This document shows positions 1 through 16,565 of a DNA stretch of 51,878 nucleotides, piece after piece. Under the pieces are notes generated by a model, which saw only the letters and a program-made list of their open reading frames with translations, did no database searches and was not told the origin of the DNA. The stretch's first letter is position 1. Each line of letters begins with the position of its first letter. Location: positions 1-51,878 of the forward strand of contig NZ_AWNH01000016.1 in the NCBI RefSeq assembly GCF_000482245.1, written 5' to 3'. The position numbers and the translations under genes are program-made. This stretch comes from Leptolyngbya sp. Heron Island J. GTDB taxonomy: Bacteria > Cyanobacteriota > Cyanobacteriia > Phormidesmidales > Phormidesmidaceae.

Positions 1-138
1 CTGCTCGCGCCACGGCAGCTCCATCATTACCCCCTCAAACTGCTGCCAAAGTTCTAAAATATTCGCTTCTTCCGGCACATAGGCGGCATCTTCAAAGGCA
101 TCACCCAAATCTAACTCCAGCTGACGAACACTAACCAT
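1..138 (-). CDS. Hypothetical protein, N-terminal part only (runs off the window)
   Basis: The minus strand reads open from an ATG at 138 to the window edge, giving 46 codons that begin MVSVRQLELDLGDAFEDAA and are rich in acidic residues. The start overlaps the stop of the gene read just before it (131-676) by 8 bases in the ATGGTTAG arrangement, which suggests translational coupling and a shared transcript. The C-terminus lies outside the window. I do not recognise the family from the visible part. Confidence 0.55.
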   Translation of the reverse strand, partial: MVSVRQLELDLGDAFEDAAYVPEEANILELWQQFEGVMMELPWREQ

Positions 139-751: not shown

Positions 752-774
752 TTTTAGTGTTATTTTTTGTGTAA
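752..774. repeat. Candidate left terminal repeat of the Tn554-like transposon
   Basis: TTTTAGTGT followed by an A/T-rich ATTTTT(T/A)GTG stretch occurs here and again at 14123-14145, just beyond tnpC, in the same orientation. About 18 of 23 positions agree by eye. The pair brackets tnpA, tnpB and tnpC, so they may be the subterminal recognition sequences of the transposon. The exact ends cannot be fixed from one copy. Confidence 0.35.
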
Positions 775-851
775 CCAATATAAATGAGCCAAACTCTAGC
801 GGATATTCTTGTGTCTACAGAGTAAACAACAACAAATTATAGACCACATCC

Positions 852-904
852 ATTACGATGTAGACAGATAACAACCAGCTTTTCTACAACGTCTACAACG
901 TAAT
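852..904. promoter_or_regulatory. Recombinase-type half-site cluster upstream of tnpA
   Basis: Immediately before the tnpA start, ATTACGATGTAGAC (852-865) is mirrored by GTCTACAACGTAAT (891-904) with one mismatch, and an additional CTACAACGT lies at 884-892. The same half-site (ACGTTGTAGAC and its complement) forms the palindromes after each tandem tyrosine recombinase at 15253 and 16421. It could be a recombinase binding or core site, an operator for tnpA, or both. Confidence 0.5.
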
Positions 905-905
905 C

Positions 906-2006: not shown

Positions 2007-3391
2007 CCATCAACACACTCCCGTCATCCAGACGACACTCCCTGAGATTTTAATCTTCTGCAAGCAGTGTGACCACATGAATTGTATTCAGCCCAAAGCT
2101 CCTATGACCCCAGCCACAAAAGGCGTTTACTGTAGTGAGTGCGGCACACAACTCTACTGGACCTCCCGCGAATCTTGGGCCGTCAACCTGGACGATGAAT
2201 TGGCTCGCGACATTTGGGATATCCGCAGACTTGGATGTGAATTGCCGCCTGGCAACACACTCTACAAACTTAATTTCACTCACATCTTTCAACCTTGGTT
2301 GCAGACAGCCACAAAAACATTTATCAAGTTATCCCTCAGCACTCTCAGTGCAAGTACTGCACGCTGCCGATTAACCTCACTCACTAAATTTTCTAGGTTC
2401 CTAAAAGCCCATCATCCAGAGATTACCCCTGAGCAGATATCTCGCACCACACTCATTGATTACTTCGCCTATTTAGCCAGCAGTGGACTGCAGACATCCA
2501 CTCGAACGCACCTCATCGTTGACTTACGCACCTTTCTAGATCTCTGTAGTCAAAATAAGTGGTTGCCAGTTGACACCTATCTGATTCGACGAGAGGACTG
2601 CCCAAAGCCCAAAACCATTATTCCTCGATACATCCCAGACTACGTATTACAGCAGCTTAAAACGCATCTTGCCCCCCATCATGCGCATGACGCTTCTACT
2701 AATGGAGTGCGGCATGCGGATCTCTGAACTGATTGCTTTAACACCCGACTGTCTAATGCAAGACAACGCAGGGGATTGGTTCCTCAGGTATTACCAGTTC
2801 AAAATGAAAAAAGAAATCACCATTCCCGTCTCACGCGAAATTGTTCGCGTCATTCAAGAACAAAAAGCGTATATCGTCGAACACGTGGGGGAGAATTACG
2901 ATTATCTCTTCTGCACCAGTTTCAAGGGCAGACGTGGCTTTTGGCCTAAGCCTAAACCCATTACGGGGACAACCTATGCGGATCATCTCAACCGACTAGC
3001 AGAGAAACACATGATCTGTGATGAAAATGGCCAGCTGTGGCATTTTCGCACCCACCAGTTTCGACACACCGTCGGCACTCGCATGATCAATAATGGCGTC
3101 CCACAACATATCGTACAGCGCTATCTCGGCCATGAATCTCCCAAAATGACGGCCACCTATGCCCACATCCATGATCAGACCATGAAAGAAGAAATTTCCC
3201 TCTTTCATGGCAAGGTCGTCAATATTGCAGGCCAAACTGTTCATACCGATACACCTCAGGCCAATGATCCAGATCTGCAGTGGTTTAAGCAGACTATTCA
3301 AGCCCAAGCACTACCCAACGGCTCATGTGCCTTACCTACTATCTCTAAGGGATGCCCCCACGCGAATGCCTGTCTCACCTGTACCCATTTT
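1996..3391 (+). pseudogene. tnpB: TnpB tyrosine recombinase, 5-prime part, frameshifted and interrupted
   Basis: The reading frame starts at 1996 inside the end of tnpA. Near the start are CKQCDHMNC and YCSECGTQLYW, which resemble a zinc ribbon; a core-binding-like region follows. At the C6 run 2672-2677 the frame shifts by +1; dropping one C restores LAPIMRMTLLLMECGMR, the expected approach to the catalytic arginine. Downstream are HQFRHTVGTRM (H-x-x-R), YLGHESPKMT and TYAHIHDQ (tyrosine). The C-terminal cysteine cluster (GCPHANACLTCTHF) is then cut at codon TTT (3389-3391) by the 9.65-kb element. The remainder resumes at 13051. The catalytic residues survive but in separate frames, so TnpB is probably inactive unless frameshifting occurs. 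Confidence 0.85.
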
Positions 3392-3429
3392 GGCCTATGG
3401 CCCCGACTCGTGCGAAATTGGGCCATAAG
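3387..3429 (+). repeat. Left target duplication (ATTTT) and left 38-bp inverted repeat
   Basis: ATTTT occupies 3387-3391 and the repeat 3392-3429. It starts GGCCTATGGCCC, passes through the loop CGACTCGTGCGAAATT and ends GGGCCATAAG. The outer and inner arms pair with each other, so one end alone can fold into a hairpin. Confidence 0.85.
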
Positions 3430-3528
3430 GCTGAAAGCTATACCCAATCTTGGTTGTAAGCCTCGAAATCAAGCGTCCTCAGGAAAAGTACTAACTAGCA
3501 GACAAATAATCGCCTAGGAATAGTTCAT

Positions 3529-3953
3529 GGGGTTTTCTGCATAACCCCTCGAAAAGGTATAGTCCAGAATAAGATACACGCGTCTCATACTGTGAAACAG
3601 CTTACTCTTTTAATTACGAAAGCAGATAGCTACACGGCAAAGAAACGCTATATCAGTTTTTCTGGCGTCTCATAAAGTCTAAGACGATCTGAGAAACGCA
3701 TAACGAGACATGAATTGAGACACACTTATTACTACGTCTTACTACGTCTCAAAAGGTACACTTTATGAGACGCTCCTCAGTCAGAAGACCTGGTGCCGAG
3801 TGACGCCCATATCGGCAAGGCAGACGATTCAATAAATAGCTATAAGCTATGTAGAGAGGGCAATCCACCATCACATTACTTCGTTTGTATTACGCTAAGA
3901 CTTAGTCGTCTTAACGTGGAATAAACTTTTCGGGGGAATATGCAAATAACCCC
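3529..3953. mobile_element. 425-bp MITE-like element related to a local IS1-family remnant
   Basis: The ends are imperfect inverted repeats of about 37 bp: GGGGTT..TGCATA..CCC.CGAAAAG..T..TCCA at the left and its complement at 3917-3953. The same sequence borders the IS1-like transposase remnant at 16566-16605, so this is probably a non-autonomous derivative of that IS. No coding capacity is visible inside, only A/T-rich DNA and a resolvase-site-like cluster (3665-3773). I could not see a matching target duplication. Confidence 0.55.
3665..3773. promoter_or_regulatory. Candidate res site (serine-resolvase subsites)
   Basis: GCGTCTCATAAAGT (3665-3678) is perfectly mirrored by ACTTTATGAGACGC (3760-3773). 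A 26-bp dyad (3746-3771), with GTCTC and GAGAC ends, has the size of a crossover subsite I. GAGACATGAATTGAGAC lies between them like a further subsite. The GTCTCA core also appears in the res-like tracts at 18190 and 27028; the latter sits directly before a resolvase start. No resolvase gene is adjacent here. Confidence 0.45.
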
Positions 3954-4075
3954 ATTTTTGTAAGCAAATACTGAAAATAGTTCGGGGTGCTGTCTCATGC
4001 TCAAAAATAAATTTTCTGAGCTTTTCCTAAGATCACTGAAAAGAAGGCTAGTGATAACGTACGTTTCCTGACTCG

Positions 4076-4111
4076 AAAAAGTTAGTACGTACTGGTTTTG
4101 TGCGTACTAAC
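4076..4111 (-). terminator. Rho-independent terminator of the cargo gene set
   Basis: Read on the minus strand, GTTAGTACG pairs perfectly with CGTACTAAC across a 13-base loop and is followed directly by TTTTTC. It lies 17 bases past the stop of the ADYC gene, so it closes the whole minus-strand set. Confidence 0.75.
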
Positions 4112-4128
4112 TACAGATGAGATAAGTT

Positions 4129-4905
4129 CTATGGACTCTGCGATTGAATGAACGAATCGTTGAATAGCAAAGGCGTAGGAATGCTTTTCAGCGCTTGAGT
4201 GTTTGACTGATTGACTTGTGTCGTAGAAGAGAGTTTCTCTGGACAGTTTTGCTGTAGTTTCTCGAAGGTGCTTTGAAAGCGAGTCCGTTTGAGATTGACG
4301 ACACCGTTAGCATCCCAGGACGCTTCTGGAGCCATACCGTTGTCTTGAGTGCGCTGCTGCACGCCGAGACGGTCGTATACATCAATGGCTGTTCCATTTT
4401 GCGTGTGGCCAGTGCCATTACCACAGTAGTCAGCCCGCACCATGCGAGTGCAGGCTTGGTGATAGTCGCGTAAGGATTCTCCTTTGAGCGTCTTCCAGGG
4501 CTTGTAGCCCCAGCGGACACATTTTGCGACCGCACCATTGGTACAGGCAAACGTAATGCTGCCATCGTCAATATGTGCCCCTGTTACATCCCACCGGCCA
4601 GAAAGCGGAATAGCCTTGGCCATGCCATCAGCGTCGGGCAAGCACAGGTTGTGCCAGGTGCTGCCGTTGCGATTATGAGCTCCCTGATAAAGAACAGTGT
4701 AGAGATAGATCTCTTGTTCATTATCTTGTGGGTCAAGCTGCACATCGTTGATTTTGAAGGTGCGAGCTTGCCCTTTCTCATCAAAGCTGGTGAGAGTTAC
4801 CTTGGTTACACTACTGCCGTACCAGGACGAGGAAAAACTGTTCCATACCGCAAGACCAACTCCCCCCACTAAGGCAAGAGTCAAGGCTAAATGACCGTAT
4901 CTCAC
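4129..4905 (-). CDS. Exported or membrane-anchored ADYC-domain protein
   Basis: The start is GTG at 4905, preceded by a strong GGAGGT five bases upstream; longer in-frame starts would overlap the neighbour. The 258-residue product begins with an N-terminal hydrophobic segment (HLALTLALVGGVGLAVW, signal peptide or anchor). A beta-rich region with a cysteine series follows (LCLPD, FACTNG, KCVRWG, QACTRM) and then MVRADYCGNGTGHTQNGT, the signature of the ADYC domain, known mainly as an uncharacterised domain of secreted bacterial proteins. The even set of conserved cysteines suggests disulfides outside the cytoplasm. It is last in the operon, 10 bases after the GLQLN-repeat gene. Function is unknown; pairing with a repeat peptide suggests they act together at the envelope. 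Confidence 0.8.
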   Translation of the reverse strand: MRYGHLALTLALVGGVGLAVWNSFSSSWYGSSVTKVTLTSFDEKGQARTFKINDVQLDPQDNEQEIYLYTVLYQGAHNRNGSTWHNLCLPDADGMAKAIPLSGRWDVTGAHIDDGSITFACTNGAVAKCVRWGYKPWKTLKGESLRDYHQACTRMVRADYCGNGTGHTQNGTAIDVYDRLGVQQRTQDNGMAPEASWDANGVVNLKRTRFQSTFEKLQQNCPEKLSSTTQVNQSNTQALKSIPTPLLFNDSFIQSQSP

Positions 4906-4915
4906 AATGACCTCC

Positions 4916-5257
4916 TTATTCGGCAGCTTTGAAAGTAAGCTGACTGCCTTCAAGCACAATGCGGTCTGTCAAAACGCCTTCAGCAGCTGAGTGACTGGCT
5001 GTGGCTTGCGTCCTGGCTGGATCGATCCAGTCGGGAAACACAGCTTTAAGAGCATGAGTCGCCTGCTGATTTCCGTTTGAGGTATTTAACTGTAGGCCGT
5101 TCAACTGCAAGCCGTTTAGCTGCAAACCGTTTAGCTGTAGACCTTCCGATCTAACTGGATTATACGGGCGAGTGCCCGGCGGAGAAGCCTGAGCGGTCAT
5201 TACGAGAATGCCTAAACCAAGACCTATTCCTGAAAGTTGTTTGCCATCCAAAATCAT
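4916..5257 (-). CDS. Small exported protein with four GLQLN repeats
   Basis: ATG at 5257 is chosen because TTGGAG lies about ten bases upstream and the first residues form a signal peptide (GIGLGLGILVMTAQA, cleavage near AQA-SPP). The mature part of about 90 residues starts with a proline-rich stretch and then four exact tandem copies of GLQLN, which would form a short regular beta-coil. A KAVFPDWIDPARTQ segment and a tail without cysteines follow. Such GxxLN pentad repeats are typical of short passenger-like segments next to ADYC proteins (recalled association, not checked). It could be a substrate of the encoded modifying enzymes or a structural partner of the ADYC protein; neither is shown. 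Confidence 0.7.
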   Translation of the reverse strand: MILDGKQLSGIGLGLGILVMTAQASPPGTRPYNPVRSEGLQLNGLQLNGLQLNGLQLNTSNGNQQATHALKAVFPDWIDPARTQATASHSAAEGVLTDRIVLEGSQLTFKAAE

Positions 5258-5410
5258 AATGATATTCTCCAATTTGTTGTTGAAATTAAATTTATGCTGA
5301 GCCATTCGAAAACTAGCAAAGCGGGCTGAGTGCAGGCTGTTTACTTCAGGATAAAAGGGAATCGAGAAGGTATCGGGAAAGTACAAGCCCATGCACTGGC
5401 TGATGATTTT

Positions 5411-6055
5411 TCACCTTTTCATTCGCGCATATAAAAACACTTCAGAATCGTCAGTGATTCCATCTGCAGTCAGGTTCTTGTGGGTGATATGTACAATGTT
5501 GAAGCTAGATTTAGAAAAGTTGTCTCGCAAGAAATCAACTGTGTGGTGATGTATAAGCACAGTATCTCCTGACAACGCCGTTTTCTGTTCTAAGTAGCAC
5601 TGATCACCCTCAATAGCACTCAAATAAGCGATTCCTTCTGGCTTTAAAGCACCGCTCGCATCTTTAACGAGTTTCGAACATTCCGACGGATTCAGGTAGG
5701 AAACACAAAATCCACAAATCACAACATCTTTTCGTGGAAGGCTGTGTGGAAGGCTGTCGAGATTCCGGCAATCTAGAACTTCAAAAACTCCGTCAGGAAC
5801 GTTTTTTCTCGCTAGGTCAACCATGTTTTGCGCGAGATCGAATCCAAATACATCTAAACTGAATCCCTGCTTTATCAGGTAGCTTGAGGCAGGCGCTGGC
5901 CCACAGCCAACCTCCAGAACAGACAGTAAACGGCCTCTTGAGAGCAAGCTACCTAACTTGTCGTATGTTTCAGTATAGGGTCGAAAATTCCTATACTTCT
6001 GGTCGTACTCATTCGCGAACTTGTTGAACGTCTGTACTGAGAGTTGATTGCTCAT
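5411..6055 (-). CDS. Class I SAM-dependent methyltransferase
   Basis: The 214-residue protein shows the SAM-binding motif I as VLEVGCGPAPASSYL (about residues 46-60) and motif II-like VFGFDLAQNMVDLAR. An acidic post-motif gives VLDCRNLDSL, and the motif IV-like strand is DVVICGFCVSYLNP. This is the small ubiE/Methyltransf_11-type fold; the methyl acceptor cannot be told from sequence. Its ATG overlaps the stop of the upstream RidA gene by four bases (ATGA), so the two are translationally coupled. Within the cargo set it is the second methyltransferase and the last enzyme before the two exported proteins. Confidence 0.85.
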   Translation of the reverse strand: MSNQLSVQTFNKFANEYDQKYRNFRPYTETYDKLGSLLSRGRLLSVLEVGCGPAPASSYLIKQGFSLDVFGFDLAQNMVDLARKNVPDGVFEVLDCRNLDSLPHSLPRKDVVICGFCVSYLNPSECSKLVKDASGALKPEGIAYLSAIEGDQCYLEQKTALSGDTVLIHHHTVDFLRDNFSKSSFNIVHITHKNLTADGITDDSEVFLYARMKR

Positions 6056-6438
6056 GGGTCACTAACCACGATTGCGTCAATTTCTACAAGCTGAGACTCA
6101 TATCCAAGCAGCGCAACCCCCAGCAACGTAGCAGGTGGCACGTCATTATTAAACCAGTCTGTTACGGCTTGCCACGCGTCTATGAGGTTTTCCCTTTCCC
6201 CGACAACATAAATCGTCAGCTGCCGGACGTCATGCTTGTGAAATCCATGGTGAGCGATTAAAGCGCCGAGATTGTTCAGGCACTGGGTTGCCTGAACGCG
6301 AGGATTACTAATGCCAACAATATTAGCATCGGCATCGTGGGGCACTTGGCCCGCAACGAATAGCTGCGAGCCTACTTGCTGAGCATATCGATAGTTTGCA
6401 GTCTGGGCTAACCCAGCAGCTTTTTCACCTTCGTTCAT
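6052..6438 (-). CDS. RidA/YjgF/YER057c/UK114-family protein
   Basis: The 128-residue length and fold match the family: QLFVAGQVPHDADANIVG near residues 25-45, RVQATQCLNNLGALI, RQLTIYVVGERENL, and a C-terminal VEIDAIVV. Classical RidA hydrolyses reactive enamine/imine intermediates and carries an arginine in an R-C-Q-like C-terminal motif that I do not see here (ALLGYESQLVEIDAIV), so it belongs to a divergent Rid subgroup. Such members often serve biosynthetic gene sets as imine deaminases or as chaperone-like trimers. A GAGG lies upstream of the ATG, and the stop overlaps the following methyltransferase. Confidence 0.85.
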   Translation of the reverse strand: MNEGEKAAGLAQTANYRYAQQVGSQLFVAGQVPHDADANIVGISNPRVQATQCLNNLGALIAHHGFHKHDVRQLTIYVVGERENLIDAWQAVTDWFNNDVPPATLLGVALLGYESQLVEIDAIVVSDP

Positions 6439-6478
6439 TTTGAATACCTCGTACTGTTGTTGAATTTAAGAGATCTCT

Positions 6479-7681
6479 CTATGCATACGGTGTGGGGACA
6501 GGCGCTTTTCCATTCAGAACCCAGTTGCCGATCTCTTGTAGTTTGTAGTCCAAAGGATCGTGCAGGCTGAGCGTGCGTAAGTCTCGCCAGTAGCGGTCAA
6601 AGCCATAGCAGGCAGCAGCAGAACGTGCTCCCATGAGTTCAAAGATTTGATTGGTGATGACCAGGCCAGTGTTAGTTGTCAGGCTTTTGGCGGAGGCTGC
6701 GGCGATCGCCACCTCCCCTCGTTCTTCATGCGTCAGCGCATTTCCCTTGTCCCATGCCTGCTGAGCCTGCGCTGTCGCCTGCGCTGCCAGGGCATTGGCC
6801 CCCTGAAGCTGCGCCCACAGATTGCCATAGTGCCGCAGCAAATGTGGATCTTCAACAGCTTTATCCACGCCAGAGGTTAGCCAGTGTCGCGACTGAGTGC
6901 GGGTATAATCCATCGCAGATTCAAGGGTTCCTTCGGCAATCCCAAGAAAAATGTGCGAGAGCAGAAGCAGGCCAAACATTCCTAGTAGCGTCGCTGCTGC
7001 ACCCTCAGGGTTCTCAGGTGGCCCTAAAATATCGGTCGCCTTGACCGTTACATTTTCGAAAGTGAAGCTGCCGCTGGCGGTGCGTCGCTGACCCATGACA
7101 TCCCAGTCGTGATTGTAGGTAAGACCCGCGCGATTGCGTGGCAATACAAACAGCACAGGAATCGGATTATCACCTTCTATTGCCGTACAGATAATGCGGT
7201 CAGCTACAGCTGCCCCGGTGCAAAAAGATTTCGCACCATTAACCCGGTAATGGTCACCATCAGACGCAATGCGCAAGCGGGTGTCGCGAATGTTAATGGC
7301 ATTTGCCCAAAAGAGATTGTGCTGGGCCGTTTCTCTATAAAAGGCTTTCGCCTGCTCGGGGGTGCCGGATAGCTGTGGCGTAGCGCTCAGCAGCACATGG
7401 TAACCGTAGAGCTGAGCGGCAGCACTGTCGCCTTTTGCCAGCTCTTTGATGATGGCCATGGCGTCTATCCAGCTTGCACCCAGACCACCGTAGGATTTAG
7501 GGACAATGAGAGGGAGTAATCCAGCTTCTCGCAACAGGTTTACTTCGTAGTTGGGGATTCCAGCTTTGCGATCGCGTTCTATTGCTGTCTCCTTGAGTTT
7601 TTTAGCAACGGCTTTGGCCGCCAAGCGGCAGTCCAGCACAGTATGTCTTTGTACAGTATGTTTCTGCGCAGTAGCAATCAT
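6479..7681 (-). CDS. Acyl-CoA dehydrogenase-fold flavoprotein (SfnB/DszC-like monooxygenase)
   Basis: ATG at 7681 follows GGAG with nine-base spacing. The roughly 400-residue product has the three-part acyl-CoA dehydrogenase layout. The N-terminal helical domain includes LLREAGLLPLIVPKSYGG. The middle beta domain has VNGAKSFCTGAAVADRI and MGQRRTASGSFTFENV, and the C-terminal helical domain GVVITNQIFELMGARSAA-like text ending in HDPLDYKLQEIGNWVL. The pattern fits the group of FMN-dependent monooxygenases typified by DszC and SfnB better than true acyl-CoA dehydrogenases, which are much fuller in acyl-CoA-binding motifs. A flavin reductase is not encoded nearby. In context it likely hydroxylates or N/S-oxidises the pathway substrate (inference). 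Confidence 0.85.
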   Translation of the reverse strand: MIATAQKHTVQRHTVLDCRLAAKAVAKKLKETAIERDRKAGIPNYEVNLLREAGLLPLIVPKSYGGLGASWIDAMAIIKELAKGDSAAAQLYGYHVLLSATPQLSGTPEQAKAFYRETAQHNLFWANAINIRDTRLRIASDGDHYRVNGAKSFCTGAAVADRIICTAIEGDNPIPVLFVLPRNRAGLTYNHDWDVMGQRRTASGSFTFENVTVKATDILGPPENPEGAAATLLGMFGLLLLSHIFLGIAEGTLESAMDYTRTQSRHWLTSGVDKAVEDPHLLRHYGNLWAQLQGANALAAQATAQAQQAWDKGNALTHEERGEVAIAAASAKSLTTNTGLVITNQIFELMGARSAAACYGFDRYWRDLRTLSLHDPLDYKLQEIGNWVLNGKAPVPTPYA

Positions 7682-7760
7682 GGTTTTGATCTCCAATTAA
7701 TTTTTTGAGCGTGAATCGGCCAGGCTATTTTTAGTAGCACTGCCTTAATTTGCGAACTGT

Positions 7761-8894
7761 TTATCTGCTACCTGTCTCTTTGCGAGCGAGGTAATAGTTG
7801 TTCTGAAAGTCATGTTCTAGTTGCTTTACTTCAATACGAGTAAACCCAGCCGCCTCAATCATTTCAAGGGCTAGTTCCTCTCCCCACATAGTCCCTAATC
7901 CGGGGCCACCCGCTGCCAAAGAGACAGCCGTACAGTGGTGACAAGAAATGAAATAGAGCAAGGGCGCAACCGGATGGTCTAGATTGTTCTCTAGATGGCT
8001 AGACGCCCGAATATCTTGCATGAGATACAGCCCTCCAGGTCGCAAGGCCCGATGGATATTTTGCAAGACAGTTTCTGGCTGCGCCTGATCGTGAATGGCA
8101 TCAAAGGCAAATATCAGGTCATACTGGCTGTCTTCAGTAATCTGAGCGGCGTCCTGTATCTGAAAGGTAATATTCTCCAGGGTCAACCGTTGGGATTCTG
8201 CCTTGGCCCAGGCGATCGCCTCAGGAGAGAAGTCGTAGCCCACGAATCGACTACTGGGAAACATGCCTGCCAGCTTTTGGATTGCCCGGCCTTGCCCGCA
8301 GCCAATATCCGCGACTTCTATTCCGCTGGCTAGCGCTTCGATTAACCCTGGCACCATTGGCAAAATGTGCGTATCTAGTCCCGCAATTACCGTTTGAGCG
8401 CTGTCTTCTGCCATCACCTCGTGGAAGCGAGTATAGGCGGAATAGGGAACGCCACCACCATGGTAAAAACAATCAATGATGGCATCTTCGACTGCGCCCA
8501 TCAGAGGCACAAACTGCATGGTCGCGGCCAGGTTATTAGGACTAGCCTCGCGGGTCAGAAAGACCGCATGTTCAGCCGGAAGTGAATAGCTGCGGCTGGC
8601 ACTGTCATAGTCAACAATGCGACCTGTCACCAGGGCGGCTAGCCACTCGCGAACATAGCGTTCGTTAAGTCCTGCGGCCTCAGCAATTTGTAGGCTAGTG
8701 CTGGCGCTGAGGGTGGCCATCGTATCTAGCAGGCCCGTGCGATGGCCAATGGAGAGCATACTGGCTAAAGCGCCACTGTTGAGCATGCCTAGCAGGCGAT
8801 CGCCAAAGGCCTCTGCCTTCTGTTCATCTAAGGCTGACGCGTTAATCTGATCTTCTAAAACTGAATTGGGTTGAGTTAGCGTATCTGTTGTCAT
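7761..8894 (-). CDS. SAM-dependent methyltransferase with N-terminal winged-helix-like domain
   Basis: Three ATG codons stand close together; the one at 8894 has GGAGG five bases upstream. The protein is about 377 residues. Residues 20-100 form a dimerisation/winged-helix-like region (LGMLNSGALASMLSIGHRTGL, AEAAGLNERYVREWLAALV), typical of the Rv2258c-like methyltransferases. The Rossmann domain follows with VADIGCGQGRAIQKLA (motif I), RFVGYDFSPEAIAWAK, IQDAAQ and DLIFAFDAIHDQ, then LRPGGLYLMQDI. Two histidines and a cysteine in YFISCHHCTAVSL may contribute to the active site. The substrate is unknown. It belongs to the cargo set, 64 bases before the flavoprotein gene. Confidence 0.85.
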   Translation of the reverse strand: MTTDTLTQPNSVLEDQINASALDEQKAEAFGDRLLGMLNSGALASMLSIGHRTGLLDTMATLSASTSLQIAEAAGLNERYVREWLAALVTGRIVDYDSASRSYSLPAEHAVFLTREASPNNLAATMQFVPLMGAVEDAIIDCFYHGGGVPYSAYTRFHEVMAEDSAQTVIAGLDTHILPMVPGLIEALASGIEVADIGCGQGRAIQKLAGMFPSSRFVGYDFSPEAIAWAKAESQRLTLENITFQIQDAAQITEDSQYDLIFAFDAIHDQAQPETVLQNIHRALRPGGLYLMQDIRASSHLENNLDHPVAPLLYFISCHHCTAVSLAAGGPGLGTMWGEELALEMIEAAGFTRIEVKQLEHDFQNNYYLARKETGSR

Positions 8895-9018
8895 CATGAC
8901 CTCCAAAAGGGAGAAATGAACTTGTCATGAGTCAACAATAGAAAAGCGGGCGCTCCCTAGACGTTCCCCGGGCGTTCTGTGGACTACCTATTGCGTTGTT
9001 AGCAATTGTCCGTCAAAG

Positions 9019-9294
9019 CTAAAGAGCGTTAATAGGTGCTGATAGCGTCTCTATCAAATTCGCTGACCAGATTTGGTCGTAGGGAACTTTTCCTTTTTGG
9101 TAGGCAGCGCGAACGGTGTCGGCATCGGCAGCTTCTAATTCGCAAACGCTGTGCGTGCGATCGCGCGATAGATACGTCCGCTTCCAAGTAATATTTCGCT
9201 CTGTCATACAAGGGGCGGAACGTTCTACTAGTTCATCCCAAAAGGCTTGGTCGATAGGGGGATTATAGGTTGTTTCGACAACGATGAGTGCCAT
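9019..9294 (-). CDS. DUF4242-like small protein
   Basis: ATG at 9294 (MALIVVETTYN) fits better than the longer frame, which adds a non-conserved leader. The 91-residue protein has the ferredoxin-like pattern of DUF4242: a first strand (LIVVETTY), a helix, then ITWKRTYLSRDRTHSVCELEAAD and a helix ending PYDQIWSANLI. The central strand pair with a conserved cysteine and W-x-x-(S/T)-Y is the family signature; some relatives are annotated as nickel-binding or as stress dimers. It is placed between the regulator (20 bases downstream of its stop) and the enzymes, so it is likely cotranscribed. Confidence 0.65.
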   Translation of the reverse strand: MALIVVETTYNPPIDQAFWDELVERSAPCMTERNITWKRTYLSRDRTHSVCELEAADADTVRAAYQKGKVPYDQIWSANLIETLSAPINAL

Positions 9295-9356
9295 AGTAAA
9301 AACACTTCCGAGAGTAGAACTCAGCTGATACGGCATGATTTTAGATCGTACTGGAT

Positions 9357-12300
9357 TCAGAAACGAATAGTCGATTCAGAGACTTTTTTCAATAATGTTT
9401 GAACACGAGCACTGAAGCTTCTAGCATTCAATGCTTTTAGCTTTTGTTGGTGCTGCTGTATTGCTGCATGCTCTTCGTTAGTTTTACAATCGGTTGCCAG
9501 GTTGCTGAGCAAACATAGGGCTTCAGCGATCACAACATCACCAGGATGTTCAACCCTTGCAGCCGCCCGATGCGCGATGGTCGCATACGCCATTGCCGAA
9601 CTCGCATCCTCCTGCGCCAGCGCTCGCTCGCTGGCATGGCTGGCCACAAAAACAATTTTTCGCTGGGCATCCAGGTTATCCAGACGGTGCAAAGCTTCGC
9701 CCAGTGACGATGGCGGCTTGCCTGCCTCTTGAGCATAGTCTTGCAGGATAATAAGTGCCTGAGCAAAGGCTGCATCGCTGCCCTGTGACAGCTGAGGAGA
9801 CAACTCCAGCAGCGCCTGAGCATAGCTCAAATCGGGCTGATGGCTATCCCAGGCCGTCATTGCCAAAAACGAGAGATTGCAGCCAGCTGCCCAATGATCT
9901 TGTTGATTTTGAGCAAGCTGAAGGGCCTGGTGAAAATGGTTCATCGCGATGTCATACTGGCCGCGATAGCGATGGATGCAGCCAAGACCCTGGTCAATAT
10001 CACACAGGGATAAACCCAGACGAGTGGCGAGTGAATGAGCTTCTAGCAATAGGGCCTCGGCTCGTTCCATGTCTTGTTCAATGGCGGCCAGGCAGCTGCC
10101 GTTGGTTGCCAGGGTTTCAGCTTGTAATTGGGGCGTGGGCGGAATTACATCTAAAGACTTTAGACACTGCCGGTGAACATCACTCAAGTTGCCTTGTTCA
10201 TAATGCAAAAAGGCGATCGCCTGATGAACAAACAATTCAGCTTCGGGCAGGGCGAAACCGTTCATTTCACCGAGCAATTTATTCAGCTGCTGTTTTACAT
10301 CCGTGGCTTCTGACTTGGAAACGCCTGCTAAAACGCGCGTCTGCCAGAGCTTGGCTGAATATAGGAGGCGATCGCACGTCTGCAAAGATTGCGCATGCTC
10401 TAAACCCAACAAAGTGAGCTGGATCGCCTCCTCATAGGCAAACAATCGCACGCTACGAGTGGCCGCTGCTAAGCAAGCCTGGGCCGCTAAGGCATGATTT
10501 CCTGCCGCGCCAGCATGGTACGCCACCTGAGCCGCCAGATCGTCTTCGATCATTTGAACCTCTAAGGTTTTGGCTAGCTGCCCATGAACTATTCGCCGCC
10601 GAGGCTCGGAGAGTTGTTCATAGGCGACCTGTCTAATCAGGTCATGAACAAAGTCATAGCTACTGCGATCGGAGCTAGCTGATAACTGTGCGGGGCGAAC
10701 AATTTGTTGTTGTTCAAGCTGTGTCATCGCCCTCAAAAATTCCATGGGTGGGTAGCTGGCGGCCGCCGCTAGAATCTCTGGATCAAACCGCCGTCCGAGA
10801 GCCGCTGCCCAAGGTAACAAGTCTCTAGCAGCTCCGTCTAACCGTTGCAGTCGATCGTCAATTAAGCCTGCCAGACCTTTAGATTTTTGGATGGATTTTT
10901 GGGTGCTAGCTCTGGCTGCTTCCAGGGCAAACAGTGGGTTGCCACCACTATCAGCATAAAGCTTGTCTGGGTCTAGTCTTTGAGGGCTTTGCTGCTCGCT
11001 GTCAAAAGCGCTGCTAAACGTGTCATTAGGTGGGGTATGAAACTTCTCTTGCAACGGCTTCACTAATGCCAGCACAGCCTCCGCAGACAAAGGTGGAATC
11101 GTTTCCTCCTGAAGTCGATTCTCTCGACGCAATGATTTGACTAGGGTGAGTGCAGCTGAATTCTCTTGCAACTCTTTCCATCTAGCGGCACAGGCGATTT
11201 TGAATGAGCTCTGACCCAGTAGCCGGAACACATAGTGCAAGAGCGTGATAGAAGAGTCGTCTAACCAGTGAATATCGTCAAATAACAGTAGTAGGGGCCG
11301 CTTTGGGGTAGCTAGCGTGCGTAACTCTTCAACGACCTTATCTAAAAGCTGTGCCCGATGTTGAGGTGCCTGGTATTGAGGTATCTGGTATTGAGCGCGA
11401 TCCGGCGACGGCGCTTGTAAGGCTGGAGCCGACACCCCAAATTCCGCCAGCAGACTACCAAATGTTTCTTCAAAGCTTGAGCGCAGCAGATCAATCCATA
11501 CCCCGTAGGCGCGGAGCTGCTCGGCGGCAAAGGCATGCCCCCAACAAGTCTGCCAGTGGTGGTGCGTTGCGGTTTCAGCCAGGGCTTCGAGCAATCTAGT
11601 TTTTCCAATGCCGGGCTCACCGATTAGCAGTAGTAAAGGGGAAGAGTCATCGATTGTGCCAAAAAGCCACTGTTCTAAAGTTCTCAACAGGTTATCTCTA
11701 CCCACCAATGGCTGGCCAGATTCAGATACTGATAGTGGCAAGGGTTCCAAAGAAGTCCCTTCGGATAGCTCCGATGCTGTCTTGGTTTCGCCTTCAGCCA
11801 TGAGCAACCGCTGATAAATTCCAGCAGTTTTTGGACTTGGGTTCACACCTAGTTCGGCTTGTAGGGTCGTCATGCACTGGTGATAAATCCGTAAGGCGGT
11901 AGCGCGATCGCCTATCTCTCCGTAGAGTTTCATCAGGCTTTGAGTGGCCCCTTCATCTAGCGGATCGGCTTGCAGCCAACGTTGCCCAAAAGCAATCGCT
12001 CTATCAATTTCTCCCAATGATTGTAGCAACTGAGTTATGCGAGCTAGAGCGCGAATATAGTTTTGCCTAATTCGCACCTGCTCAGGGTAAATCCATTCTG
12101 CGTCGCAGTTCAGCCAGAGCTCACCCTGACATTCACTCCGACATTCAAGCATCGCGGTTTCTAACGCCAGTATAGCGGTTTCGTCCTCAGCATTCTGAGC
12201 ATTTGCAAGTGCGGTTTCAAAGGTAACGATGTCTACATCGCAGGGGATTTGAGGCTGCCAGTATAGCGTTTTAGGTGCGATCACAAGTAGCGAATCGATC

Positions 12301-12539
12301 GGAGCATTGACCTGACGCAAATAATGGAGTTCTTTACGTAAGTTTGCAAGCGCCTGGCTGTTCTGGGTCTCTGGCCAGAGCGCTTCGGCAATGCGACGGC
12401 GAGGTTGAGGAGCCTGACGATACAAAATGAGGTAGGCAAGTAATTGTTGCGATCGCCCACGCAGCCCAGCGACAGTTTCACCGCGATTAAGCAGGCAAAA
12501 GTCACCGAACAAACAAACCTTTAGAGATGGCTTTTCCAT
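9357..12539 (-). CDS. Large BTAD/AAA/TPR transcriptional regulator (SARP/AfsR-like or LuxR-LAL-like architecture)
   Basis: This is a 1060-residue protein. Residues 1-95 form an OmpR-type winged helix (LFGDFCLLNRGE, RGRSQQLLAYLILYR, LWPETQNSQALANLRKEL). Residues 100-245 are the bacterial transcriptional activator domain (EGATQSLMKLYGEIGDRATAL). A STAND/AAA_16 ATPase follows, with Walker A GEPGIGKT near 305 and Walker B-like LLLLFDDIHW near 413. The C-terminal 400 residues are TPR-like helical repeats. Proteins of this layout sense a signal through the repeats and activate adjacent clusters (known). It is first in the cargo set and far the largest gene, so it is the likely switch. HIP1 octamers are frequent in it, as in the host-like segments. 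Confidence 0.9.
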   Translation of the reverse strand: MEKPSLKVCLFGDFCLLNRGETVAGLRGRSQQLLAYLILYRQAPQPRRRIAEALWPETQNSQALANLRKELHYLRQVNAPIDSLLVIAPKTLYWQPQIPCDVDIVTFETALANAQNAEDETAILALETAMLECRSECQGELWLNCDAEWIYPEQVRIRQNYIRALARITQLLQSLGEIDRAIAFGQRWLQADPLDEGATQSLMKLYGEIGDRATALRIYHQCMTTLQAELGVNPSPKTAGIYQRLLMAEGETKTASELSEGTSLEPLPLSVSESGQPLVGRDNLLRTLEQWLFGTIDDSSPLLLLIGEPGIGKTRLLEALAETATHHHWQTCWGHAFAAEQLRAYGVWIDLLRSSFEETFGSLLAEFGVSAPALQAPSPDRAQYQIPQYQAPQHRAQLLDKVVEELRTLATPKRPLLLLFDDIHWLDDSSITLLHYVFRLLGQSSFKIACAARWKELQENSAALTLVKSLRRENRLQEETIPPLSAEAVLALVKPLQEKFHTPPNDTFSSAFDSEQQSPQRLDPDKLYADSGGNPLFALEAARASTQKSIQKSKGLAGLIDDRLQRLDGAARDLLPWAAALGRRFDPEILAAAASYPPMEFLRAMTQLEQQQIVRPAQLSASSDRSSYDFVHDLIRQVAYEQLSEPRRRIVHGQLAKTLEVQMIEDDLAAQVAYHAGAAGNHALAAQACLAAATRSVRLFAYEEAIQLTLLGLEHAQSLQTCDRLLYSAKLWQTRVLAGVSKSEATDVKQQLNKLLGEMNGFALPEAELFVHQAIAFLHYEQGNLSDVHRQCLKSLDVIPPTPQLQAETLATNGSCLAAIEQDMERAEALLLEAHSLATRLGLSLCDIDQGLGCIHRYRGQYDIAMNHFHQALQLAQNQQDHWAAGCNLSFLAMTAWDSHQPDLSYAQALLELSPQLSQGSDAAFAQALIILQDYAQEAGKPPSSLGEALHRLDNLDAQRKIVFVASHASERALAQEDASSAMAYATIAHRAAARVEHPGDVVIAEALCLLSNLATDCKTNEEHAAIQQHQQKLKALNARSFSARVQTLLKKVSESTIRF

Positions 12540-13005
12540 CGTTTACATCTGCGACTTGCCAGTGTACGTTTGACCTCAACGTCTCAATCTTAGTTTATCT
12601 TTTCCAAACTTCTTGGAGATGCCCAGCAGCGAGCAGAACGTATATCAGCCACCATACCAGCAGCGTTTGGTCGTTCACTGCTGTGACGTGTGTTAGGTTG
12701 AGATAGTAGACCTGTTACGTAACAAAGGCCTAAAATCGCTGCAATCTAGACACAGCATAAGCTTCAGATATTTTCCGAAAAAGATTGCTGAATGCCAGGT
12801 GTATCAATGGTTTCAGCTATTATTTCTCTTATATTGCAACACCTCTAGTCACAAACAACTGATCACTTCACTATGTAATAGAGTAACAAGACTCCATTGC
12901 TATAAATCTTGCGTTCAGTGAGCTCCAAAGCTGTTTGCTGAATCCCTCCGGAGAATAGTGGAATACCCGAACCCATCAAAAACGGATTTACCTTTAGGAT
13001 TAGTT
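12540..13005. other. Leader region between the cargo regulator and the right end of the element
   Basis: No gene was found in these 466 bases. They contain a perfect 12-bp palindrome TGTTACGTAACA at 12713-12724 inside CC..AAGG. It lies about 175 bases upstream of the regulator start and could be an operator or promoter element for the minus-strand set. No convincing sigma-70 promoter could be assigned. Confidence 0.4.
12713..12724. promoter_or_regulatory. Palindrome upstream of the cargo regulator
   Basis: TGTTACGTAACA is perfectly self-complementary. Position and symmetry suggest binding of a dimeric regulator, possibly the SARP-like protein itself or a host factor. There is no further copy in the cargo that I saw. 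Confidence 0.35.
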
Positions 13006-13050
13006 GGCCTATGGCCCAATTTCGCACGAGTCGGGGCCATAGGCCATTTT
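13006..13050 (-). repeat. Right 38-bp inverted repeat and right target duplication (ATTTT)
   Basis: The inverted copy occupies 13008-13045 and ATTTT follows at 13046-13050. Here the internal palindrome is perfect: GGCCTATGGCCC (13006-13017) and GGGCCATAGGCC (13034-13045) flank a 16-base loop that is the complement of the left loop. It differs from the left end at one position, next to the inner edge. Confidence 0.85.
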
Positions 13051-13230
13051 CGCACCACTGCGGCCCACCTCAACGAGCATAAACAGCAATTGACCGCCAC
13101 AAAACAATTGATCGAGAAAGCTCAAGCCAACGGCTGGACCCGGCAGGTGGAAATGAATCAAACGGTGCAAGCCAATTTAGAAGCCATCATTGCTGGATTA
13201 GAGGCACCAGACGATGACAGCCAAGCGTAA
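13046..13230 (+). pseudogene. tnpB: TnpB C-terminal fragment, detached by the inserted element
   Basis: After the ATTTT duplication the frame reads HFRTTAAHLNEHKQQLTAT and runs to DDDSQA and a stop at 13230. This continues TnpB from 3391 exactly in phase (CLTCTHF joined to RTTAAHL). This tail is a basic, helical segment typical for the end of TnpB in the Tn554 group. It overlaps the tnpC start by 17 bases, as expected for the intact operon. It is cut off from its own start codon. Confidence 0.85.
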
Positions 13231-14062
13231 CACCCAGGGGCTCTCTGACAGTGCCCAACGCAAGCGGCAGGAAACCTTTAAGAAGGTTGACAAGGGTATT
13301 CAACAACTCATCAAAACCCAGCACCCGATCACCTTCTCGGCGGTCGCGGAGGCCGCTGGGGTATCCAAGGCATGGCTCTACAAAGAGGCCAGCGTCAAAC
13401 AACGGATTGAGCAGCTCCGAGACCAGAGCCGACAAACCGGACCATCCCAGCGACGAGAGTCGGCCAGCGAGAAATCCTTACGGGGGTTAAATCAAACCCT
13501 ACGCAACCGACTCCAGACGGTGGAGGCGGAAAATCGGGAACTGCGGCGGCAAAATGAGATCTTTGGGGGCTATCTCTTGCGGATACGGGAGTTAGAGAAG
13601 CAGCTGCAGCATCTAGAGGCTGAGAACCAGCAGCTCAAACACCTTAAAACCGGTACAACCCATAACACTCGGGTCTATAAGCAAGACCTCAATGCCTTGG
13701 GCATCAAGCTCAATTCAACCTTACGAAACCTGATCAGGGCCACACCGAACGCCATTGTTGAAACCGCAATTCAAGCCTTAGAAGAGGCCTTGAGTCGAGG
13801 GCTGGTGAGCAACCCTGGCGGATTTCTTCATGCCGCCGTTAAAGACTGTTGGCAACCTAATGAGTCTCTGGGCAACGTCGCTGAATTAGACACCTTTAAC
13901 GAGTGGTGGCGGTGGGCTTATGACCAGGGCCTTGTCAAAGCCGCTACTCAAATTGACGGGGTTCAACATGTCCTAACAGCGGATGAGGAATGGCTGCCAT
14001 TAGACACAGCTTTAACCCGCTATCCCATGGATACTGCGATCGCTAACCCGCCCCTCCCATAA
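13214..14062 (+). CDS. tnpC: TnpC-like accessory protein of the Tn554-like transposon (DUF6262 type)
   Basis: The protein has 282 residues. Residues 25-75 include a TetR/HTH-like segment (ITFSAVAEAAGVSKAWLYKE). Residues 75-150 are a long coiled coil with leucine/glutamate heptads (NRLQTVEAENRELRRQNE, LEKQLQHLEAENQQLKHL). The second half (RNLIRATPNAIVETAIQAL, GFLHAAVKDCWQPN) is longer than in the shortest TnpC proteins. In Tn554, TnpC affects orientation and frequency of transposition (known); the DNA contact is inferred from the HTH. It seems intact and is the only TnpABC part after TnpA that is undamaged, although its promoter link to tnpA is now broken by the insertion. Confidence 0.85.
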   Translation: MTAKRNTQGLSDSAQRKRQETFKKVDKGIQQLIKTQHPITFSAVAEAAGVSKAWLYKEASVKQRIEQLRDQSRQTGPSQRRESASEKSLRGLNQTLRNRLQTVEAENRELRRQNEIFGGYLLRIRELEKQLQHLEAENQQLKHLKTGTTHNTRVYKQDLNALGIKLNSTLRNLIRATPNAIVETAIQALEEALSRGLVSNPGGFLHAAVKDCWQPNESLGNVAELDTFNEWWRWAYDQGLVKAATQIDGVQHVLTADEEWLPLDTALTRYPMDTAIANPPLP

Positions 14063-14122
14063 ACCCATAGGGCCAAATAGCCTGCTCTACCAGGCGTTTG
14101 AGCCTCTAGTTATTCGTCTAAG

Positions 14123-14145
14123 TTTTAGTGTAATTTTTAGTGAAG
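14123..14145. repeat. Candidate right terminal repeat of the Tn554-like transposon
   Basis: This TTTTAGTGT plus A/T-rich block repeats the sequence at 752-774 in the same orientation. It lies about 60 bases past the tnpC stop, where an end would be expected. The match is imperfect. Confidence 0.35.
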
Positions 14146-14251
14146 TCAATGAAAGTTTTGTTAGTTTGGGTAGAATATCTACCATAGGAAGATGCCCACG
14201 CTAGCTTGCGGGTTTCGTCCTGCGGGTTGTTTCAAATAAGGGGAGTTGCCA

Positions 14252-15232
14252 ATGGCGCGTGATATTCCTGAGCCCACCTTTATCGAGTTTGGCCAGGTCG
14301 CCCAGGCACCCGTGCGGGTTATCGAGGATTTGGGCTGGCAGCGGGTGGTGGAGTTTTTGCGATCGCGCGAACTATCCGGTAGTACACTCAAAGCCTATGA
14401 ACGGCAGCTCCAGATCTTCTACACCTGGACCCAGAATAAACCCTGGCACGATATCACCCATCGCGACATTGACCGCTACAAGCAGCACCTGAAGAATCGG
14501 CCCAGTAAACGGGGAGGAACACTCGCTCCAACGACGATTAATCAGGCCCTCGCCACACTGAAGAGTTTCTTCAAGTGGCTCACCGTCAAGGACTATATCA
14601 CCCGTAATCCCACCCTCACTATTGAGTTTCTCAAAGAATCGGCCAAGCCGCCTCGCGATTTAGCCGAAACTCAAGTCAATCAGCTGTTTCAGGCTTTGGC
14701 CTACCGGGGTGATTCCGAAGTGCGAGACCGGGCACTTCTCCAGGTGCTTAGTCATGGATTACGGGCCAGGGAGGTCTGTGGGCTGGATATCAGCGACTAT
14801 GATGGACGGCGGTTGCAGATCCGCGAGGCTAAGTGGGGCAGTGATGGCCTGGTGCCGCTGAAGCCGGATGCTGTTATGGCATTAGATAGCTATCTGGGAT
14901 GGTTGGTACGCAATGGATTTGCCGTCAGCCAGGAGACTCCCTTGTTTATCAGTTTGTCGAATAACAGCCGGGGGCAGCGCTTGGGCTATAGCGGTATCTA
15001 TGAGTTGGTCAAGGATTTAGCGCAAGCCAGCGAGCTAGAGGATATTCACCCTCACCGCATGAGACATACTTTTGCCACCTCGCTCGTAGCCGCTGGCATG
15101 AATCCGTTGTTGGCAAAGCGAGCCGTCCGCATTCGCTCTGACAAGATTTTTGCTCGCTACAGTGACCGGGCATTAGATCTCAAGATGGAAGAGGCCTTTG
15201 AAGAGATTTATGGCGCTTCTGAAGAGTCATGA
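14252..15232 (+). CDS. Tyrosine recombinase, first tandem copy
   Basis: ATG at 14252 is chosen because the second copy starts at the equivalent codon (MARD.PEPTFIEFGQV), with GGGGAG upstream. The protein has 326 residues: a core-binding domain (STLKAYERQLQIFYTWT, about 45-130), then the catalytic domain with the first arginine in SHGLRAREVCG, the H-x-x-R box HRMRHTFATSL and the tyrosine in FARYSDRA near residue 304. The usual LGH box is replaced by RAVRIRSD, so the second conserved histidine seems absent. It differs from the second copy at about 30 residues. A palindromic candidate recombination site (15253-15278) follows the stop by 20 bases. Confidence 0.88.
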   Translation: MARDIPEPTFIEFGQVAQAPVRVIEDLGWQRVVEFLRSRELSGSTLKAYERQLQIFYTWTQNKPWHDITHRDIDRYKQHLKNRPSKRGGTLAPTTINQALATLKSFFKWLTVKDYITRNPTLTIEFLKESAKPPRDLAETQVNQLFQALAYRGDSEVRDRALLQVLSHGLRAREVCGLDISDYDGRRLQIREAKWGSDGLVPLKPDAVMALDSYLGWLVRNGFAVSQETPLFISLSNNSRGQRLGYSGIYELVKDLAQASELEDIHPHRMRHTFATSLVAAGMNPLLAKRAVRIRSDKIFARYSDRALDLKMEEAFEEIYGASEES

Positions 15233-15252
15233 TTTGGTGATCTTTAGAACCT

Positions 15253-15278
15253 CACGTTGTAGACATGTCCACAACGTG
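15253..15278. repeat. Palindromic candidate recombinase site after copy 1
   Basis: CACGTTGTAGAC and GTCCACAACGTG flank AT, with one mismatch between the arms. Two inverted 11-12-bp arms around a short centre resemble a tyrosine-recombinase core site, although the 2-bp centre is shorter than the usual 6-8. There is no T tract, which argues against a terminator. Confidence 0.5.
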
Positions 15279-15419
15279 AAACGCCCATCAGGAAAGGCTT
15301 CCAGGCGTCAAGCTAGAGATATATTGATTTATTTAGGGTAAAATTTCAGCCAGAGGGAGGGGGGTACGAAAGATTAGGCCTTTCGCTCTATGGATTTGTT
15401 TAAATGAGGGGAGGTCTGT

Positions 15420-16400
15420 ATGGCTCGTGATATGCCTGAGCCTACATTTATTGAATTTGGGCAGGTGGTCAGGGCACCAGTGCCGGTAGCCGAGGATTTG
15501 AGTTGGCAGCGGGTAGTAGAGTTTTTGCGATCGCGTGAGTTATCGGCCAGTACCCTTAAATCCTATGAACGGCAGCTTCAACTCTTCTATAGCTGGACTC
15601 AGAATACGCCCTGGCATGATATTACCCACCGCGACATTGACCGCTACAAGCACCATCTTAAGCATCGACCCAGTAAACGAGGGGGTATGTTGGCTCCAAC
15701 CACGATTAATCAGGCATTGGCCACACTGAAGAGTTTCTTCAAGTGGCTTACCGTCAAGGACTATATCACCCGCAATCCTACTCTCACCATTGAATTTCTC
15801 AAAGAGCCTGCCAAACCCCCTCGCGATTTACCGGAAACTCAGGTTAATCAATTGTTTGAGGCGTTAGCCTACCGGGGCGATTCTGAAGTGCGTGACCGGG
15901 CAATTCTCCAGGTGCTCAGTCATGGACTGCGCGCCAGGGAGGTGTGCGGTCTCGATATCAGTGACTATGATGGACGGCGGTTGAGCGTACGTGGGGCTAA
16001 GTGGGGCAGTGATGGACTGGTGCCGTTGAAACCGGATGCGGTTGCCGCATTGGATAGCTATCTGGGTTGGTTGGTACGTAATGGCTTTACCGTCAGCCAA
16101 GAGTCCCCTTTATTCGTCAGTTTATCTAACAACAGTAGAGGGCAACGCCTGGGCTATAGCGGTATCTATGAGCTAATCAAGGATTTAGCACAAGCCAGTG
16201 AGTTAGACGACATTCACCCACACCGCATGAGACATACCTTTGCCACTTCTCTCGTCGCTGCTGGCATGAACCCATTGTTGGCTAAGCGAGCGGTTCGCAT
16301 TCGCTCTGACAAGATTTTTGCGCGCTACAGTGACCGAGCCCTGGATATCAAAATGGAAGAGGCCTTTGAAGAGATTTATGGGGCTCCTGACGAGTCATGA
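15420..16400 (+). CDS. Tyrosine recombinase, second tandem copy
   Basis: This is a 326-residue paralogue about 91 percent identical to the preceding gene, with all the same catalytic positions (SHGLRAREVCG, HRMRHTFATSL, FARYSDRA) and the same atypical RAVRIRSD segment. GGGGAGG precedes the ATG. Many codons differ at third positions while the protein is conserved, which suggests both copies were kept under selection for some time after duplication and that the second is not a recent duplicate. The duplicated block of about 1.17 kb also includes the downstream palindrome and the following text (CTAGAGATAT). Function is probably excision or integration of the island; the target is not known. Confidence 0.88.
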   Translation: MARDMPEPTFIEFGQVVRAPVPVAEDLSWQRVVEFLRSRELSASTLKSYERQLQLFYSWTQNTPWHDITHRDIDRYKHHLKHRPSKRGGMLAPTTINQALATLKSFFKWLTVKDYITRNPTLTIEFLKEPAKPPRDLPETQVNQLFEALAYRGDSEVRDRAILQVLSHGLRAREVCGLDISDYDGRRLSVRGAKWGSDGLVPLKPDAVAALDSYLGWLVRNGFTVSQESPLFVSLSNNSRGQRLGYSGIYELIKDLAQASELDDIHPHRMRHTFATSLVAAGMNPLLAKRAVRIRSDKIFARYSDRALDIKMEEAFEEIYGAPDES

Positions 16401-16420
16401 TTTGTTGATCTTTAGAACCT

Positions 16421-16446
16421 CACGTTGTGGACATATCTACAACGTA
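16421..16446. repeat. Palindromic candidate recombinase site after copy 2
   Basis: CACGTTGTGGAC and ATCTACAACGTA flank AT; the arms match at ten of twelve positions. It sits 20 bases after the stop, exactly as at copy 1, and shares its half-site with 852-904. Confidence 0.5.
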
Positions 16447-16565
16447 AAACCCTATCTGGATAAGGCTTTCAAGAGCCATGCTAGAGATATGTTTAATTAT
16501 TTGACATAGAATTCTAAAGCTCTGAATCTTGATCGAGGTATTGCGTGGTTCAGAGTACAATTTAG

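Follow-up and report, generated by a model that had tools for sequence, protein, structure and literature searches.

Bacteria use dif-type sites to separate joined circular chromosomes. Xer systems with a single recombinase and a linked site have been described, namely XerS/difSL (PMC2731167), and XerL/dif of the Legionellales, which was revealed by a mobile element with a mimic of dif (PMC9765430). The dif modules of Acinetobacter are described as units thought to move through the host XerCD (PMC6449649), and elements of the IS1202 family, which encode a DDE transposase, are reported to target pdif and dif, 5 bp from the XerC site (PMC10132070). As regards cyanobacteria, it has been stated that the Oscillatoriophycideae have no Xer and that they possess a Cyan subgroup (PMC8138268), and a systematic prediction of dif failed in five of five cyanobacteria though XerCD was stated to be present (PMC3025954). 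Putative dif sites have been given for a recombinase of the Heterosigma plastid (PMC2410131).

In this study we analyzed a stretch of 51,878 nucleotides of Leptolyngbya sp. Heron Island J (contig NZ_AWNH01000016.1; referred to as the window), which contains two tandem genes encoding tyrosine recombinases, designated YR1. Comparison of the window with loci of Adonisia turfae and Leptolyngbya sp. PCC 7375, which were examined for YR1 arrays and for a trio of genes resembling Tn554, suggests that YR1 is probably a Xer-like recombinase with a dif-like site of its own, which forms arrays via site-specific recombination. Among the matches listed in the open-licence literature, we found no report of a YR1 array or of a cyanobacterial Tn554-like element at a dif-like core. 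The features of the locus are presented in Table 1.

Tandem YR1 genes and their repeat units

Both YR1 ORFs are intact, and their 326-residue products share 90.8% aa sequence identity (84.5% at the DNA level). The initial annotation had considered both copies preserved, with mostly synonymous drift, and closer inspection bears this out: third codon positions account for 111 of the 152 differences between the genes, and the pairwise dN/dS is 0.059. Relaxed selection in one copy was looked for and not seen, since the dN values relative to the homolog of locus L041 are nearly the same (0.102 for the first copy and 0.105 for the second). Judging from these substitution patterns, both copies are under purifying selection.

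The repeat starts not at the gene but at position 14161, on the right arm of the dif-like leader site. The two units, which are bounded by the dif-like site, are each exactly 1168 bp long and 82.2% identical. A recent tandem duplication was considered and is not favored, because two observations speak against it: (i) the dS between the neighboring copies is 0.86, compared with 0.52 between the first copy and the A. turfae copy L038, and (ii) the first YR1 groups with the latter on the protein tree (support 96/90), a grouping that is left open by a DNA tree of nine copies. For the idea that the two enzymes work as a pair on the ends of an island, no support was found: both copies lie on one side of the Tn554-like trio, and the first copy has its partner on the protein tree in A. 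turfae.

Table 1. Features of the YR1 locus in the window (positions are those of the whole stretch).
Feature	Position	Strand	Remarks
Hypothetical gene, left flank	131..676	-	Pfam 0; flank also precedes YR1 in A. turfae (L043)
Trio attL: left half-site and core ATGAGC	774..789	+	half-site 774-783, core 784-789
Trio element	790..14154	+	left end CAAACTCTAGC (790-800), right end half-site copy (~14118-14154)
YR2, trio recombinase 1	906..2006	+	Phage_integrase
YR3, trio recombinase 2, broken	1996..3517	+	overlapping frames 1996-2727, 2669-3517
DUF6262 protein of trio	13214..14062	+	PF19776, 61.4 bits, cut-off 29
First YR1 leader site = trio right junction, AGTCAATGAAA-GTTTTG-TTAGTTTGGGT	14144..14171	+	score 7.4, weak
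Unit 1 (1168 bp)	14161..15328	+	half-site, leader, YR1, palindrome, half-site, core
YR1, first copy	14252..15232	+	Phage_integrase + N-terminal SAM-like domains
28-bp palindrome after first YR1	15252..15279		13/14 Watson-Crick pairs (first of two dyads)
Hybrid junction site, GCTAGAGATAT-ATTGAT-TTATTTAGGGT	15312..15339	+	score 8.2
Unit 2 (1168 bp)	15329..16496	+	
YR1, second copy	15420..16400	+	Phage_integrase + N-terminal SAM-like domains
28-bp palindrome after second YR1	16420..16447		11/14 Watson-Crick pairs (second of two dyads)
Right-hand site, GCTAGAGATAT-GTTTAA-TTATTTGACAT	16480..16507	+	score 7.6, weak

Relationships and distribution of YR1

As had been noted, both copies carry RAVRIRSD at the LGH box, whose His position corresponds to residue 294, occupied here by Ile. 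Alignment with 57 relatives revealed R171, H268 and R271 in all 57, K194 in 54 and Y303 in 56 (with one gap). Residue 294 is more variable (His in 32, Ile in 23, Tyr in one, and one gap), and in a tree of 56 rows, one truncated row having been dropped, 22 of the 23 Ile rows form one clade (100/99) with L028 apart. Ile294 is thus a trait that the 22 members of this clade have in common, and no peculiarity of the tandem pair.

The best-scoring NCBIfam models are those of XerD and XerC, at 133-138 bits, well below the curated equivalog cut-offs of 330-335, and the best relatives of solved structure are XerD (1a0p) and XerA. Matches at 1e-40 occur in 88 of the 291 genomes of the class, and several YR1-type copies per genome are present in two of the genomes (G004 and G005). 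A tblastn search of plasmids matched 1063 records, all with less than 60% identity; the 30 of these that were listed are all cyanobacterial and include four plasmids of Pseudanabaena galeata. In the genome of the Heron Island strain itself, a paralog with 49% identity (L004) is located close to genes that, by eye, resemble those of ParA and ParB. The many relatives on plasmids suggest that the YR1 module may descend from a plasmid dimer-resolution system.

The palindrome behind YR1

As initially annotated, each YR1 gene is followed by the same two-armed palindrome. This is a 28-bp dyad, which lies 19 nt behind the gene. Its pattern has no match in shuffled window sequence, and a 24-base form matches only these two places in the same genome. 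With 3 mismatches allowed, the pattern was found at nine places in 3 of the 8 genomes of the genus that were searched (none for the reversed control). Eight of these places follow a complete or truncated YR1, including the interrupted copy L042, and the ninth (L057) lies within an apparent decayed YR1 behind a DUF6262 gene. Degenerate forms of the palindrome were detected in L040 (88%) and L044 (77%).

It is possible, albeit doubtful, that the palindrome serves the trio, through binding of YR2 or YR3, or that it acts as an RNA hairpin at the 3′ end, both of which are compatible with the dif-like element being the YR1 site. The window contains the arm sequence CTACAACGT five times: as a direct repeat of two copies in the YR2 leader (884-901; starting at 884 and 893), as two copies in the palindromes and as a single copy at another position, which would suit a role in the trio; against this, no trio junction falls within the palindrome. 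The RNA of the nine copies is predicted to fold at -3.7 to -16.0 kcal/mol, as expected of a hairpin, but a T-run is absent after all nine, and an intrinsic terminator was rejected on that ground. Covariation among the nine copies compared was too little to claim.

Other repeats of the window are (i) a near-perfect 47-bp palindrome at 18037-18083, with 23-nt arms (91% complementary) separated by 1 nt, and (ii) a pair of 179-bp inverted repeats (95% identical) at 49207-49385 and 51204-51382.

A candidate dif-like site in the YR1 leaders

Each YR1 leader contains, approximately 100 bp upstream of the start, a putative 28-bp dif-like element of 11-6-11 structure with inner arms ATAA/TTAT. The site preceding the first YR1 of the window aligns with AGTCAATATAA-ATTAGC-TTATTTAGGGT of L043. 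The recombinase subgroup with its own site, as proposed in the initial annotation, is supported, but the site is most likely this dif-like element, which occurs in the leader and again where the units join, and not the palindrome.

Scanning of 500 bp on either side of 50 relatives revealed ATAA-N6-TTAT sites upstream of genes whose products are as little as 34% identical, e.g. (i) GATAGAGATAA-GTGAAG-TTATCTCTATC in L028, (ii) AACCCAAATAA-ATGAAC-TTATTTGGGGT in L020 and (iii) ATTCCAGATAA-TGATGA-TTATCCGGAAT in L070. A site score, built after the sites had been seen and applied to 55 rows that are related to one another, was at least 10 for 11 of the 55 genes, compared with 1 of 1100 shuffles (0.09%), and at least 11 for 8 of the 55, compared with no shuffle. 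The remaining 44 of the 55 genes score below 10, a value that the window's own three sites also fail to reach (Table 1); these were recognized through alignment with L043, L044 and others. In one clade, none of the seven genes has an upstream site by pattern.

A search of the 8 genomes with the leader-site pattern (3 mismatches) gave 18 places, five of them at YR1, compared with 22 for the reversed control. The pattern of the right-hand site, which is absent from three complete YR1 copies, was found at seven places, five of which are beside YR1 (control, none); the other two (L085 and L090) have 3 mismatches each, and that of L085 lies inside an unrelated gene. L074 and L084 have a candidate downstream site, but this falls within a gene that looks by eye like a response regulator, and it was discarded for that reason.

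Site-like sequences were also seen away from YR1 (L094, L104 and L096). The sequence AATATAA-AGCTGA-TTATTCAGGCTA is identical in PCC 7375 and A. turfae, and a similar one is present in another genome (G003). They may be either a chance occurrence or a candidate for a chromosomal dif; the control pattern of the search gave as many matches.

A piece of approximately 165-185 bp, containing the tRNA-like sequence TGGTGGGACTTGAACCCAC, adjoins leader half-sites in two loci of A. turfae, L057 (~900-1080) and L038 (~3720-3890); it is perhaps another small unit on the same kind of site. ARAGORN, run with a tRNA target in mind, predicted no tRNA in the window or in L038 and one in the 11 further loci (in L040), and Rfam at gathering scores gave no match in the window, L057, L038 or L043.

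Hybrid junctions and variable cores

The arms of the sites depend on their position. In first leaders, the left arm is similar to AGTCAATATAA and the right arm to TTATTTAGGGT, and the sites behind the palindrome have the left arm GCTAGAGATAT. At the junction in the window, the left arm is that of the end of unit 1 and the right arm that of the leader of unit 2 (Table 1), and the tandem of L039 has a hybrid of the same type, GCTAGAGATAT-GAGGAT-TTAGTTAGGGT. Both the unit boundaries and the hybrid junctions can be read directly from the nucleotide sequence.

Among 16 leader sites, the mean pairwise identity is 0.61 in the left arm, 0.36 in the core and 0.85 in the right arm; the corresponding values for the 8 right-hand and junction sites are 0.98, 0.32 and 0.68. 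Of 29 cores, 24 are distinct, and by these comparisons the 6-bp cores are near random and the arms conserved. The two end cores of a unit differ, a situation that ordinary Xer recombination would not favor. In PCC 7375, the core GAGGAT is common to the L039 junction and one trio left end, and AAGAGC is common to the right site of L051 and another trio left end, the chance agreement of two cores at this composition being about 1 in 527. The cores look as if they had been swapped, rather than changed by mutation in place.

The 80 bp behind the right-hand site were compared with YR1 leaders for five copies. Four of the five (L038, L042, L051 and L055) gave an alignment (z 2.5 to 6.1), so another unit seems to have followed there; behind the second unit of the window the alignment fails (z -1.2 to 1.4). 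In L050, the break at the right end comes 4 bp before the core is reached, and the two flanks that were tried revealed no empty site of a YR1 unit.

It is unlikely that the leader dyad is a mere promoter or operator, with the tandem having arisen by old duplication or homologous recombination. The dyad does overlap a -10-like TAGAAT (seen by eye), and the window's own sites score weakly; however, conservation extends to the arms and not to the 6-bp core, two tandems show a junction that is hybrid at the core, and the trio lands at the core edge. The dS of the neighboring copies, higher than that between the first copy and its A. turfae counterpart, also speaks against this reading.

Quite improbable is a reading in which the palindrome, which may itself be divided as 11-6-11, would be the YR1 recombination site. 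Its occurrence at nine places, all behind YR1 or its remains, and its fixed distance from the gene in the window would agree with such a role. It is nevertheless probably not the site, because it is missing from several close copies and no junction falls within it. Seven complete copies are at least 90% identical to the first YR1 (the two of the window, L038, L050, L043, L045 and the second L039 copy), and the palindrome is present in four and absent from three of them (L043, L045 and the second L039 copy). Contrary to what the initial annotation implied for homologs, it is also lacking in L041 (84%) and L046-L049 (66-73%). The unit junctions lie at least 33 bp downstream of it, the trio insertions are at the dif-like core, and none of the recombination junctions found, whether of units or of the trio, is inside the palindrome.

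A Tn554-like trio inserted at the core edge

The leftmost 789 bp of the window correspond to positions 3121-3909 of A. turfae L043 (93.8% identity), and the match extends as far as the final base of the core. This core is ATGAGC in the window and ATTAGC in L043 (5 of 6 alike), which reads AGTCAATATAA-ATTAGC at this position. On the evidence of this alignment, L043 is the uninterrupted form of the window locus, and the trio boundary at 789/790 is exact. The trio itself corresponds to L045 in two segments, i.e. 790-3390 to 5019-7629 (92.6%) and 13044-14260 to 7624-8842 (88.4%). YR3 is cut at 3390, and its C-terminal end is located at 13047-13230.

The interrupting sequence (3391-13046) is an insertion of 9.66 kb, whose 37-bp inverted repeats are 100% identical and which has ATTTT on both sides. 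The eight ORFs scanned in it gave matches to an ADYC domain, two methyltransferases, a RidA-like protein, an acyl-CoA dehydrogenase, a SCO4226-like protein and a BTAD/AAA regulator, and contained no transposase domain.

The gene order YR2, YR3, DUF6262 in L045 and L125 is that of the Tn554 family, i.e. two tyrosine recombinases and a third protein. The DUF6262 protein is the third protein of the trio and a putative counterpart of TnpC. We rejected a RIT element, as the trio has two recombinases and DUF6262 and not RitA-RitB-RitC between inverted repeats. The left side of the distant trio L125 (YR2 66%) is without such a site, and this trio, by eye, seems to interrupt a helicase-like frame.

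The left-end pattern of the trio was found at six places in the 8 genomes, five of them exact (the window, three in PCC 7375 and one in A. turfae). In all five exact cases, the trio follows 6 bp that are in turn preceded by a half-site, which is degenerate in L117; the sixth place (G006) has 3 mismatches, and its reversed control also gave one. At the right end, the trio carries a copy of the half-site together with TTTTTAGTGTAA-like repeats, and a 33-bp part of this end in the window shows 97% identity to the sequence on the left of the L122 trio. Two trios of PCC 7375 share the right end and the attR core GGGTTG and differ in attL (GAGGAT and AAGAGC), which agrees with the 6-bp footprint that has been reported for Tn554-related elements and SEs (PMC10214605). 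The alignments place the insertion of the trio at the core edge.

It is very unlikely that YR1 is the fourth gene of a single four-gene transposon: a DUF6262 gene does lie directly before YR1 or its remains in four loci (the window, L042, L122 and L057), but this reading is not favored because of L043, the same locus uninterrupted, which like L050 has YR1 without the trio, and the right end of the trio, a half-site copy, stops before YR1.

Proposed mechanism

We consider YR1 to be probably a simple tyrosine recombinase with a linked 28-bp site composed of two 11-bp arms and a 6-bp core. In this genus, the module would be a repeating 1168-bp unit, joined head to tail at hybrid sites. YR1 would bind the arms and exchange strands around the core, circular units would integrate, and arrays would grow. 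The Tn554-like trio would target sites of this kind as well and presumably insert at the right edge of the core; since its right end carries a half-site copy and another 6 bp, the YR1 leader and site would be rebuilt. Binding, cleavage, circles, direction and dimer resolution by YR1 are predictions of this scheme, as is the chemistry of the trio.

More tentatively, the YR1 units may be minimal self-mobile elements, each a circle of 1.17 kb that contains a single recombinase and a single dif-like site, which would integrate into the sites of other units without core matching, acquire a new 6-bp core with each join, and be parasitized by a Tn554-like element that restores the site.

A family of cyanobacterial recombinases in which a dif-like site is linked to the gene would provide concrete gene-site pairs for testing. 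The combination of conserved arms and near-random cores would be informative as to whether such enzymes require homology of the cores, and the trio would be a further example of a mobile element that mimics its target site.

Comparison with known systems

As XerS/difSL and XerL/dif are described, YR1 resembles them in having one recombinase, a putative site of the 28-bp class and a site-mimicking mobile element that reveals it. It differs from both in its several diverged copies per genome, its arrays and its variable cores.

The occurrence of units between dif-like sites together with a site-seeking mobile element recalls the Acinetobacter dif modules and the IS1202 family, in the form in which these have been presented. 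In contrast to the Acinetobacter modules, each YR1 unit carries a recombinase and holds only YR1. An assignment of the units to the dif modules was rejected, as they contain no other genes and the right-hand-site pattern is found mostly (5 of 7) beside YR1. Unlike the IS1202 family, the trio inserts at the core edge and has tyrosine recombinases.

The trio shares with the Tn554-related elements and SEs, as characterized in PMC10214605, the set of two recombinases and a small protein, and probably also a specific target and the 6-bp footprint pattern; SEs are stated there to have Tfp as well. It is distinguished from them by its target, a dif-like site, and by its right end, which copies the half-site of that target. 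Finally, the Cyan subgroup comprises cyanobacterial simple recombinases proposed to replace Xer (PMC8138268), and by this description YR1 may be likened to it.
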